This document shows, piece by piece, positions 1,307-40,847 of a stretch of 64,000 nt of DNA. Below the pieces are notes generated by a model, which ran no database searches, had not been told where the DNA came from, and saw only the letters and a program-made list of their open reading frames with translations. The translations under genes were made by a program, and so were the position numbers. The stretch lies in NCBI GenBank assembly GCA_963854735.1, contig OY978101.1, positions 1,240,001 through 1,304,000 on the forward strand. The letters run 5' to 3'. Positions within the stretch are counted from its first letter, which is position 1. Each line of letters starts with the position of its first letter. Source of the DNA: Marvania coccoides (lineage: Eukaryota; Chlorophyta; Trebouxiophyceae; Chlorellales; Chlorellaceae).

Positions 1307-1666
1307 ACGATTGAAAAATCTAGCATTTATGGTGTATGTATTTTGTATGTATTTATTGTAATTAGAAATTAATCAATGCATTAAAAATGGCACCATTAGC
1401 ATTGCATAGTGGGGGCTGCTATAATGAGGTGTTTTTATGCTAGGGGCCTGCAACAGACTTGACACATGGACATCTGGGGATCTGCTGGCTCCTCTCCAGG
1501 GTTGTCATAGGGCCGGCAGGAAAAGCAGATAAAACCAGCTATACGTAGTCTAGAAGCCGCATACATAATAAACGGGAAATCGAGTAATGAAAAGAAATCA
1601 ACCATCTATGACGAAGACAGGCCTCTGGTCCTGTGTCGTGTACGAAAGTATAGGAATGGTTTTGCT

Positions 1667-1747
1667 ATGCCAAGGTCCATGGTTCGATCCCGTGTTCGGC
1701 CAAAAAATCCGGCCGAATAGCTCAGCTGGAAGAGCGTGGCACTGAAG
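1667..1747 (+). tRNA. Circularly permuted tRNA-Phe (GAA)
   Basis: The 3' half lies upstream of the 5' half. The 3' half (1667-1702) reads: position 38, anticodon 3' strand TGCCA (1668-1672), variable loop AGGTC, T stem CATGG, T loop TTCGATC (1683-1689), T stem CCGTG, acceptor TTCGGCC (1695-1701) and discriminator A. Eight bases (1703-1710) follow. The 5' half (1711-1747) then reads: acceptor GGCCGAA, TA, D stem GCTC, loop AGCTGGAA, D stem GAGC, G26, anticodon 5' strand TGGCA (1737-1741) and CTGAAG with anticodon GAA (1744-1746). Acceptor (7 bp) and anticodon (5 bp) stems pair perfectly. Box A (1718-1729) and box B (1681-1691) are intact, in reversed order. A T5 run (1752-1756) fits a pol III terminator. 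CCA is not encoded. Neither flank holds the missing half of an ordinary tRNA. Maturation would need circularisation and trimming, as known for permuted tRNAs of red algae and prasinophytes. Confidence 0.93.
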
Positions 1748-7542: not shown

Positions 7543-8996
7543 ATGTTGCGGAGCGCAAGCATCACCGCCCTGCGCAAGTGCAGCGGATTTTCTTACGCTG
7601 TAAATCTTTTGCCCACTGTCGCTGCACTGCCCTCCAGAGCAGCTTCATGGGCCCATTTCCATTCAAACCAATTCTACACTCCCCACGCAGCGGTGAGCCC
7701 ATTTCTATCTACTTGCACATTCTCCAACAACATCTCTGTCCATTTTCGATTCAATCTCTGAATAATACAAATTTATTGGTCGAGCCACCTTGAAATTTCG
7801 CCTGCAGAACGCTGCACAGTTCCGCTCCTTCAGCGCCCAGCCCGCTGTCGCCGAGGAAGACCCCCCCACTCCTCCGCCTGAGGACGCTGCAGCCTCCCTT
7901 TCAAGCGCCACCAACGTGCAGCCGCACCCCGGCATGCAGGCCGACGCTGGCCTGCCGCAAACAGTCGTCACCGCCCCCACCCACTCCTACTGGCTGATGA
8001 ACCCCGCCTACTCTCGCGCCTACATGGAGAGCGTCACCCCCAAGCACCGCAAACCAGAGGCGCTGCACGACTGGACGGGCTGGGCCGCGGTGCAGGTGCT
8101 GCGGCGGTCGTTTGACTTGGTCACGGGCTACTCTCCGGGAAAAATGACGGCTGACAGGTGGCTGACTCGCTTTCTATTTTTGGAGACAGTGGCAGGGGTG
8201 CCGGGCATGGTGGGAGCTGGGCTGCGCCACATGCGCAGCCTGCGCACGATGAAACGGGACCAGGGCTGGATCCGGACCCTGCTGGTGAGCTCCTTTCTCA
8301 AATATTTTGCCTTTTGAATTTTGGGATGTCTCAGTTTTTTTTACCAAACAACGTATCATGATTAATTTATAGGAGGAGGCGGAAAACGAGCGCATGCACC
8401 TGCTGACCTTCATGCAGATGGCCCAGCCGGGGCCCTTCTTCCGCGCTGCAGTCCTGGGCTCCCAGGGAGTCTTTCTTTCTCTGTACGTTACAAATTTACA
8501 TTTTCCCCCTCTTCCAACGCTTTTCACACCCCTTTTCTCAACCCCAATTTTTAAACCCCCCTCTTTTATTATTTTTCTATCAGGTACACGCTGTTCTACG
8601 CCATCAGCCCCAAGCACTGCCACTCCTTTGTCTCTTACCTGGAGGAGGAGGCGGTGAAGACGTACACCCAGGCAGTCTCAGACATCGATTCGGGACGCGT
8701 GGCCGAGTGGCAGCACACCCCAGCCCCCGAGGTAGGAGAAAAAACCCACTAGAACTCGCAGCAAACAGCAAGCGCTGAAATATGATTTTTCTTTCTAATA
8801 AAATCGTTTTCTTTATTGAGCGCACGTGCAGGTCGCCATTCGGTACTGGCGGCTGGAGAAGGACGCCACCATGCGGGACGTGCTGCTGGCGGTGCGGGCC
8901 GACGAAGCGTGCCACAAGCACGTCAACGCCACATTTGCAGGGCTCACACTCTCAGAAGCTAACCCCTTCTCGCCTGGAACGCACGAAGTGCCATAG
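7543..8996 (+). CDS. AOX: Mitochondrial alternative oxidase
   Basis: Five exons (7543-7692, 7808-8284, 8373-8482, 8584-8731, 8832-8996) join in frame to 349 residues, the usual AOX length. The enzyme is the di-iron ubiquinol oxidase of the inner mitochondrial membrane, which passes electrons from ubiquinol to oxygen without pumping protons. Conserved iron-ligand blocks are visible in order: [30 protein letters not shown] and [11 protein letters not shown], giving the expected Glu and ExxH ligands. The third residue of the last ExxH is Cys where most family members have His, which should not affect metal binding. The N-terminus ([15 protein letters not shown]...) is basic, hydroxylated and lacks acidic residues, as in a mitochondrial presequence. 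All four introns are GT-AG. Confidence 0.95.
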
Positions 8997-28728: not shown

Positions 28729-29526
28729 ATGGGGGAGTCACAGTACAGCTTCAGTCTGACGACGTTCAGCCCCAGCGGCAAACTCGTGCAGATCGAATAC
28801 GCGCTGAATGCCGTGAACGCAGGGGCCACCTCACTGGGAATCAAGGCCACCAACGGCGTGGTGCTGGCCACCGAAAAGAAGCTGCCATCCATCCTGGTGG
28901 ACGAGTCGACGGTGCAAAAGATCTCGCTGATCACTCCCAACATAGGCGTGACATACAGCGGCATGGGCCCAGACTCGCGCGTTCTCGTGCGCAAAGCTCG
29001 CAAGTCTGGCCAAGTCTACTACCGCCAGTACCACGAGCAGATCCCAGTGGCACAGCTCGTCCGAGAAACAGCCACCGTCATGCAAGAGTTTACACGTGAG
29101 CAATGTTCACCCTCGTTTCTCCCCATTTTTACCACACTTACCACCCAACGCACCCCTATTCTAACCCTGCTACCCCCTCCCGCAGAGTCTGGCGGGGTGC
29201 GGCCCTTCGGGGTGTCTCTCCTCACAGCCGGCTACGACGAAAACGGCCCGCAGCTGTACCAGGTGGATCCTTCGGGCTCCTACTTCGCGTGGAAGGCCTC
29301 CGCCATCGGGAAAAACATGGCCAACGCCAAGGCGTTCTTGGAGAAGCGGTACAACGAGGAGCTTGAGCTGGAGGACGCCATTCACACTGCGCTGCTCACG
29401 CTGAAAGAAGGGTTTGAGGGGGAGCTGACAGGGGACTCAGTGGAGGTGGGCGTCGTGGGAGAGGACCGCAAGTTCAGGGTGTTGACCGCGGAAGAGGTGG
29501 CGGACTACTTGCGGGAGGTGGAGTAG
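28729..29526 (+). CDS. PSMA2: 20S proteasome subunit alpha type-2
   Basis: Exons 28729-29095 and 29186-29526 give 235 residues, the normal length for this subunit. The N-terminal alpha-subunit signature [20 protein letters not shown] is followed by [20 protein letters not shown] and [20 protein letters not shown]. Alpha subunits form the outer rings that gate the proteolytic chamber. The 90-bp GT-AG intron (29096-29185) has no stop in frame. The spliced form restores the conserved [12 protein letters not shown], so splicing is favoured. The gene follows MLH3 on the same strand after 251 bp. Confidence 0.95.
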
Positions 29527-38993: not shown

Positions 38994-39734
38994 TCATGGA
39001 GCCGCAACGTTAATATTTGTGAGGGATGCGAAACGAGGGGGGGGGAGGCCAACGAGGTCATCCGGGAAAACGTCCCCAAATTCCTGTTGAATCCATGCAG
39101 GCGCCGAAGGCGGCGGGGCAACAACATCAGCGGCGAATCCAATATAGTCGGCGGGCGGAGCGTCGGGTTCCGTAACCCACGCTGTAAAACAACTTTCTTT
39201 ACTGCGGAGAGCTTTCTTAGATGCTTTTTGGCTCATAAAATCTGGGCCAGAAAAGTCATCTGCGACAGCGTTCATGGACAACACAATTTCTTCACCCCGG
39301 TGGAGAAACGTGGCAACTTTATTTTTCCAGCTAATTTCAGGATCAAATTTCTCCAACCAGGACATGCCTAGAATGACATCAAAATTCTGGAGGGGAACAA
39401 CGGCAAAATCTATTTTATCACGATATCGATTGATTTTCAGCGGTGCATTGGACACCGTCCCTAGCACATTGTCGACGCAATTAAAGCCAGCGACGGTAAT
39501 ATCAGCTTCAAGTTTTCGGACTTTGATCTGCTCACGGCGCACACAAGAAGAGGCCAGAAAAGATCTGGTCGCACCAGGATCAATTAAAATTCGAACAGCT
39601 TTACCATGCAAAAAACCGCGAACAACAAACAAGTTGTGATTCACGTCGAGGTGGGGTTCGTTAAACTCAGCGGCGGGCCTGAGCGGCAGCGGGAGGGCTG
39701 CCCACATTTGCCTGGAACCTGAGGTATGACTCAT
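38994..39734 (-). mobile_element. Ty3/gypsy-type retrotransposon fragment (aspartic protease)
   Basis: A 246-codon frame encodes a retropepsin-like domain: LFVVRGFLHGKAVRILIDPG with the active-site triad as D-P-G, SFLAS, then VILGMSWLEKFDPEISW. The C-terminal part, AWIQQEFGDVFPDDLVGLPP, matches the sequence that usually leads into reverse transcriptase in Ty3 elements. The frame stops there, so reverse transcriptase, RNase H and integrase are missing. No gag is seen upstream. It is a truncated, presumably inactive copy. Catalytic DTG/DSG is here DPG, which may itself be inactivating. Confidence 0.8.
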
Positions 39735-40847
39735 GGATGATCCCCTACATATGGTTTCGACTCAGGTTCGATTCGAGTGAATCGAGAACCATGGCACCGC
39801 TGCCTCTTGCGCACGGAGCTAGCACTAAGGCCTGAAGCTGATGGTGGGCTTAATCACGAGGACGCCATCAAATAGAGGGGAAGATAATGTTACGGCATGG
39901 GCTAGAGGGTCGTACCCTCCAGGAGTATGCCTCCTGTAGCCATAAGAAATATGGCCATAGACCCCGGATAGGTCTATTGTAGCCCATTTCCCCTACACGG
40001 CTGGTGCCCCCGCCGGCAGCAGAAGCTGCTGGAGGGGGCGCCAGAGTGGCGGGCATCGTTTTTCATGCCTTTGTACACTGGTGAGGGAACTGCTTTATTT
40101 TTATAGTATATTGTTTTATTTCATTGAACCCTCAATTAACTGTGCTGCATTCAATTATTTTTTGCGTTTTTGACTCAATGATAGCATTATTTGAATATCT
40201 CGTACCTGCAGACTCTATCATGGCGCTGGAAGGCGCACTGAGCTGTCCCCAGCGACCTTTCCCCTTCTCTTTCAGCAGCAGCAGTACAGAGCCCGTGCAG
40301 CGTGTGCGGCAAGGGGCCTCGGCGGTGTAGCCGCTGTTTTGCTCAACAGCGTGCCAGCGCAAAGCATGCCGCGGCATAAGAAGGTTTGCAAGCCTCCAGA
40401 GGAGGCATGCGCGAGGAAGCTGCTGTCGTTTCACATGGTAGACAAGGTGGATTACCATGCAATGCCGTAATGTCCCTTTGTCGCAGGTGTTTAAACTGGT
40501 TTTTACACCGGTGTAAGCAATATCGCTGAGAACATGATTGTATAGTCATAATGCAAAATAAACAAATAACAGAAGACCTGCAACGTTTATAAAGGCGAAA
40601 ATATAGAAGCAATCGGTAATGGCAAATGAAAAGCAAGAAGAAGCCCAAGCATGACAAAAAAAGCAGTGGAAAAAAAGACAGTCGGAAAGGTATCGTATCT
40701 TGAGGAATCCATATATAGGGAGGGCGCGGCAGTAATTGAAGTGCAGGAAAAAAGAAGACGGAAAAGTCCCATAAATTTTAATTTTCGTCATCAAGCTATC
40801 GATTCTTCATAAGCTGCGGACAGCTCAGCGAGGGATTTGCGGGGAGC
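39735..40847. other. Probable retroelement flank, then AT-rich spacer
   Basis: The part at 39735-40090 is moderately GC-rich and non-coding. It includes an imperfect hairpin around GGTTCGATTC...GAATCGAGAACC (39769-39794) and may be leftover LTR or leader of the adjacent element. The rest is AT-rich with no supported gene. Confidence 0.4.

Follow-up and report, generated by a model that had tools for sequence, protein, structure and literature searches.

One of 17 permuted nuclear tRNA genes in a green-algal genome: a tRNA-Phe(GAA) gene whose 3' half precedes its 5' half

The permuted tRNA genes known by 2014 are collected in Table 1 of PMC3978253. That table holds 34 genes, none of them for tRNA-Phe, and its largest set, 11 genes, comes from Cyanidioschyzon merolae. 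The same paper reports for red and green algae a maturation route through a circular pre-tRNA, describes the hBH motif, and states that the order of the internal promoter elements in permuted genes, box B before box A, is unsuitable for TFIIIC. The type II genes of the Ostreococcus and Micromonas nuclei and of the Bigelowiella nucleomorph resemble the gene presented here in being opened between nucleotides 37 and 38, in their short intervening sequence and in their normal-looking exons (PMC3978253); their relaxed motif of the hBH type has a counterpart here in the pairing seen over the whole set of genes. They occur at 2 to 6 permuted genes per genome (PMC3978253), whereas 17 were found here, and the nearest named relatives of the present alga are chlorellalean. 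For the nucleomorphs of Bigelowiella and Amorphochlora two permuted Ser genes have been reported (PMC4494063).

The window, by which we mean the whole stretch of 64,000 nucleotides that was analysed (C5:1240001-1304000), belongs to an assembly of 22.46 Mb in 15 contigs, nuclear plus organelle, of which C14 (49,038 bp) and C15 (99,873 bp) look like mitochondrial and plastid genomes. It contains ordinary algal open reading frames, for example an alternative oxidase exon (7766-8314), and a retroelement aspartyl-protease-like frame (RVP_2) on the minus strand at 38997-39761. At 28729-29526 lies a proteasome alpha-2 reading frame that probably runs through an intron. The named proteins closest to it include those of Nannochloris sp. 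'desiccata' (84%) and Parachlorella kessleri (82%); unnamed entries (82-84%) and a Cuscuta entry (59%) were matched as well. An earlier, sequence-only reading of the window had named prasinophytes among the groups with established permuted tRNA genes. Judged by this one protein, the closest named relatives belong for the most part to the chlorellalean green algae and not to the prasinophytes, and we regard the alga as a chlorellalean trebouxiophyte.

Read directly on the plus strand, the 3' half of a tRNA-Phe(GAA) lies upstream of a complete 5' half, and here the sequence-only reading was correct to the base. The features of the locus are the following.

1643..1651, plus strand: leader stretch; in the minimum-energy fold of 1641-1760 it is predicted to pair with 1749-1757 as an outer helix of 9 bp
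1660..1666, plus strand: leader end TTTTGCT, whose bases can pair with those of the anticodon loop when set in the register of tRNA introns (significant over 17 genes jointly)
1667..1702, plus strand: 3' half of tRNA-Phe(GAA), from nucleotide 38 to the discriminator A73 (38-43, variable loop, T arm/box B, acceptor 3' strand), from the sequence, the R2 model match at 1667-1747 and circular ARAGORN
1678..1694, plus strand: T arm/box B, CATGG TTCGATC CCGTG, from the sequence and the motif place C5:1241681
1703..1710, plus strand: intervening sequence AAAAATCC, the expected acceptor loop of a circular pre-tRNA
1711..1747, plus strand: 5' half of tRNA-Phe(GAA), from nucleotide 1 to G37 (acceptor 5' strand, D arm/box A, anticodon 5' strand), from the sequence, the box A motif at C5:1241718 and the R2 model
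1744-1746, plus strand: anticodon GAA
1752..1756, plus strand: T5, the presumed Pol III terminator, 4 nt past G37, a position common to the permuted genes

When its length was recomputed, the spacer between the halves came to 8 nt, as first read. The halves are on the same strand and this distance is inside the range of 1-74 bp of the permuted genes in Table 1 of PMC3978253. Rejoined in the order 5' half, 3' half they make 73 nt which ARAGORN calls tRNA-Phe(gaa), a canonical eukaryotic tRNA as expected of a type II gene. Its stems have 7 acceptor, 4 D, 5 anticodon and 5 T pairs (one G-U), in agreement with the 7 acceptor and 5 anticodon pairs claimed before, and U33, G37 and A73 are present. 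Nucleotide 20 is A; in yeast, G20 is an identity base for PheRS. The claimed junction at 37/38 also stands, with an ambiguity of one base, since A38 can be assigned to 1667 or to 1748. The inverted order of the boxes, with B (1678-1694) upstream of A, and the T5 run behind the 5' half (1752-1756) were likewise found as described; AATA separates that run from G37 (1747).

Linear ARAGORN found no tRNA in the window and Rfam at gathering thresholds gave no match there, while ARAGORN in circular mode read the tRNA-Phe across the permutation. We also built a covariance model, R2, by rotating five ordinary tRNAs of this genome (those for Val, Met, Cys, Lys and Thr); the Phe gene was kept out of it. 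It scored 69.9 bits at 1667-1747 (rough E 2.8e-23) and had no second match up to E 10 in the 64-kb window. Block-shuffled loci yielded 2 circular-mode calls and 1 linear ARAGORN call in 1740. The R2 score, as the sole match in the window, together with the call rate on shuffled loci led us to reject a chance resemblance. An organellar insertion was rejected on G37 and the sequence of the gene, which we take to be of the eukaryotic cytosolic type.

The genome was surveyed by collecting ungapped motif places and then reading the loci. All 86 nuclear places of GGTTCRANYCC were read (78 cut out and 8 already in the set), as were 36 of 36 for AGTTCGANYCT and 28 of 28 for TAGCTCAGNNGG; 43 of the 62 nuclear places of AGTTCAANYCT were read and 19 left out, and the 65 places of TGGCCGAGNGG and the 32 nuclear places of TGTTCGANYCA were compared by position only. 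ARAGORN called no tRNA, in linear or in circular mode, at another 41 loci (AGTTCAANYCT places, L103 again and L076). A concatenated plant-type tRNA probe had a single match, in the plastid. A tRNA family search placed 52 of its 61 listed matches on C14 and C15; the nuclear matches thus number at least 9, an undercount because only 63 of 454 first-look candidates were scored.

On 158 loci, linear ARAGORN with introns allowed found 17 nuclear tRNA genes in normal order. Circular mode on the same loci made 18 wrap-around calls at distinct places, of which 17 were clean by hand reading; the last, L061, had no readable anticodon and was not counted. In this incomplete survey there are therefore 17 permuted nuclear tRNA genes, every one with its junction at 37/38, and their spacers range from 6 to 111 nt. 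They are Phe GAA, Tyr GTA, Asn GTT, Ile AAT, Val AAC, Leu CAG, Ser GCT, Thr CGT, Thr TGT, Arg TCG, Arg TCT, Arg CCG, Arg CCT, Ala CGC, Ala TGC, Gly GCC and Glu CTC. The genes in normal order comprise Val TAC, Gln CTG, Met CAT, Gly TCC, Glu TTC, Asp GTC and Ala AGC, which lack introns, and Cys GCA, Lys CTT, Thr AGT, Arg ACG, Ser TGA, Ser CGA, Ile TAT, Pro TGG, Pro CGG and His GTG, which carry introns of 9 to 95 nt. Anticodons set by hand differ from those of ARAGORN in five permuted genes (L049, L051, L062, L114, L115) and in three of normal order (L075, L104, L108). The least certain is Ile TAT (L108), because nucleotide 37 would be G.

The 34 genes have 34 different anticodons with no overlap between the two classes, so that none of the permuted genes has a normal-order twin among the genes found. 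The incomplete survey lacks several isoacceptors for Leu, Lys, Pro, Ser, Trp, Gln, Gly and Val altogether, permuted or normal. R2 covered both halves in 13 of the 17 permuted genes (29.6-69.9 bits); in Arg TCT, Ala TGC, Arg CCT and Gly GCC, whose spacers exceed 50 nt, it missed the true 5' half (11.7-23.2 bits) and gave no support. On balance we consider it likely that permutation is as common as normal order among the nuclear tRNA genes, and that at least 17 anticodons, Phe included, are supplied only from permuted genes. Since half of the nuclear tRNA genes found are permuted, many tRNAs are probably made through circular RNA. L061 and L103 have the acceptor, T and D arms of a permuted tRNA and no readable anticodon loop or adjoining T run; they look permuted and may be decayed genes or genes with further introns, and neither is counted among the 17.

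The sequence-only reading had named ordinary, expressed tRNA-Phe genes elsewhere in the genome as part of what would count against it. Such a gene was sought and none was found, although a Phe gene with a different D arm could escape this search. The Phe-type D-arm/anticodon-arm motif AGAGCRNNNNNCTGAAG has 17 places in the genome, and only the one in the window adjoins a box A match. Ten of the other 16 (L121-L130, central 520 bases) contained no tRNA according to linear or circular ARAGORN; the remaining 6 were judged by position. A DNA search with the joined tRNA-Phe gene, which is insensitive to diverged copies, matched both halves, and here only. The permuted gene is probably the sole source of cytosolic tRNA-Phe.

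The signals for transcription are shared by the permuted genes. In all 17 a run of at least four T starts 2-8 nt past nucleotide 37, compared with a T4 within 20 nt at about 10% of random places in the window. Inside the genes the longest T run is 2 or 3 in 16 of 17 and 4 in Thr TGT. In the tRNA-Phe gene it is 2, with the T5 at +4, so a single transcript is expected. The motif TTTTGC, often as TTTTTGCACC, recurs directly 3' of both permuted and normal nuclear tRNA genes: it lies within 40 nt downstream of 10 of the 17 permuted and 11 of the 17 normal genes, against a background of 2%, and is possibly an extended Pol III terminator signal. Its presence behind both classes ties them to a common habit of termination. 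Upstream, no clear TATA box could be made out, and the 60 nt in front of tRNA-Phe are 53% A+T. L193:214-2049 (minus strand) encodes a protein in which a TFIIIC B-block and a GTF3C1 winged-helix domain were recognised; the GTF3C1 domain is the better evidence, because 8 of 14 prokaryote controls had a match to the B-block family too. This protein resembles the largest TFIIIC subunit; half of the tRNA genes found in the same genome have their A and B boxes in inverted order. Catalytic domains of the splicing endonuclease are encoded as well, one Sen2-like (L192) and one Sen34-like (L191).

No unambiguous bulge-helix-bulge had been seen in the sequence-only reading, which left the processing signal open. 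In eukaryotic tRNA introns the intron base -3 pairs with nucleotide 32, and intron bases -2 and -1 together with nucleotide 38 form a bulge. We therefore treated the leader of each permuted gene as the 3' end of an intron and scored the pairs 32:i-3 to 36:i-7. Over the 17 genes the anticodon loops paired better with their own leaders (2.68) than with leaders swapped between genes (1.82). None of 20,000 permutations reached the own-leader score, and in a second run 11 of 200,000 did so (6 with Watson-Crick pairs only, 80 with G-U counted fully); without Phe the figure was 31 of 100,000. The first run comprised 42 range-by-register tests, and canonical intron numbering predicts the register 32:i-3; other registers gave no comparable signal except a weak one at +1 (p 0.009-0.055). 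The 10 normal-order genes with introns scored best in the same register, 32:i-3, where the range 32-35 gave 2.25 versus 1.56 (p 0.002) and the wider ranges 32-36 and 32-37 gave p 0.018 and 0.059.

The pairing over the set (11 of 200,000) answers this question in part: it points to a bulge-helix-bulge signal of relaxed form, significant over the 17 genes jointly but weak for Phe alone. In the Phe gene the pairs are C32-G1664, G34-U1662, A35-U1661 and A36-U1660, with a U33xU1663 mismatch and a bulge of C1665, U1666 and A38, and 3.6% of random 10-mers of the window pair equally well. With the register left free, a test by pairing energy did not reach significance (p 0.17, with 24 of 200 flank shuffles doing as well), nor did most genes singly. 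The minimum-energy fold of 1641-1760 suggests a possible 9-bp outer helix between 1643-1651 and 1749-1757 that the terminator may shorten.

Several loci contain partial units beside or near complete genes. At L190:380-600 (C2, about 846605-846825) a second unit follows the permuted Leu(CAG) gene in tandem, at a spacing of 103-107 bp. Its 5' half and terminator are the same as those of the gene, but its 3' half is truncated and lacks the anticodon-stem strand as well as most of the variable arm. At L093:240-361 the 5' half and terminator of the permuted Ala(CGC) gene recur in tandem as a unit of 61 bp, so that one 5' half is an orphan. The permuted Ala(TGC) gene (L152/L153; C5, about 857.3 kb and 861.6 kb) has a second copy some 4.2 kb away on the opposite strand, with damage to the T stem and the anticodon-stem strand of its 3' half. 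A truncated copy of Lys(CTT) (L099; C8, about 773.6 kb), about 5 kb from the full gene (L040), retains the intron and the 3' half without the 5' acceptor strand. The half-units hint at an origin of permutation by tandem duplication and loss of the outer halves; later duplications could also explain them.

Taken together, these observations are best explained by a functional nuclear tRNA-Phe(GAA) gene of the permuted type II (37/38), which is probably alone in supplying cytosolic tRNA-Phe and would be matured through a circular pre-tRNA; from the sequence we put the probability of this reading at about 0.92. Points that weigh against it are A20, the absence of a clear upstream TATA box, the position of box B ahead of box A, the non-significant free-register test and the incomplete coverage of the survey. 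One might instead suppose that the permuted copy is an unexpressed, dead rearrangement while an ordinary gene works elsewhere. Decayed and partial units certainly occur in this genome (the truncated second Leu unit, the orphan Ala 5' half, the damaged Ala(TGC) and the truncated Lys), and L061 and L103 lack a readable anticodon. Against this, every stem of the tRNA-Phe is intact, its terminator is placed as in all 17 permuted genes and the survey, incomplete as it is, found no other tRNA-Phe gene, so we regard a dead copy as improbable. Still harder to credit is that the halves are transcribed and used separately, for example as a split tRNA joined in trans, and are close together only incidentally. 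Orphan half-units do exist, such as the duplicated 5' half behind Ala CGC; however, no T run above 2 interrupts the Phe gene, one transcript is expected, and the search with the joined gene matched both halves at this locus only. A split tRNA was rejected for these reasons. Equally implausible is an assembly artefact in which a misjoin or tandem collapse has swapped the halves of an ordinary gene. Nothing was seen in its favour; the same junction recurs at 17 loci on different contigs, with differing spacers (6 to 111 nt) and their own terminators, and this explanation was rejected too.

If the gene is functional, RNA polymerase III would produce one transcript consisting of a leader, the 3' half, AAAAAUCC, the 5' half and a short U-rich trailer. 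The tRNA stems would fold normally, and the end of the leader would form with the anticodon loop a relaxed bulge-helix-bulge of the kind found at tRNA introns, in which the splicing endonuclease would cleave past G37 and ahead of A38. Joining of the G37 and A38 ends by a ligase would give a circle, from which RNase P and RNase Z would excise the 8-nt acceptor loop AAAAAUCC. CCA would be added after this end processing and the tRNA would then be charged.

If at least 17 anticodons are indeed supplied only from permuted genes, cytosolic translation as a whole would depend on the splicing endonuclease and on a ligase for the production of circular pre-tRNAs, and each permuted gene would have a leader that coevolved to pair with the anticodon loop of that gene. 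Permuted tRNA genes are rare and unexplained. At least 17 of them for which no normal-order gene was found would make the circular pathway essential, which could be tested genetically, and the tandem half-units bear on how such genes arise. The case also illustrates that ordinary tRNA finders can overlook a large share of the tRNA genes of a genome.

Among the matches listed in the open literature, which leaves most subscription papers outside its scope, there was no report of permuted tRNAs in Nannochloris, Picochlorum or Medakamo. Auxenochlorella offers a likeness: the genome of this trebouxiophyte measures about 22 Mb, its tRNAscan-SE set was described as incomplete and permuted genes were then found (PMC12636532, preprint PMC12633428); a permuted tRNA-Phe may already be among them. 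The tRNA-iMet and tRNA-Tyr genes of Thermofilum pendens likewise have the 3' half first and are single-copy for their anticodon, but they are archaeal, have the junction at 59/60 and contain introns (PMC3978253). C. merolae, as described, shares with the present alga many permuted genes in one nucleus, some of them type II, a T stretch past the 5' half and a tRNA set mostly without duplicates. It differs in that 11 of 43 genes are permuted with junctions at several positions, whereas here 17 of 17 are opened at 37/38, and in that TFC1 and TFC3 homologs were reported as not identified, whereas a TFIIIC B-block/GTF3C1-like protein is encoded here. The Phe gene itself is thus of a known kind, and the surprising part is the genome-wide extent of permutation.
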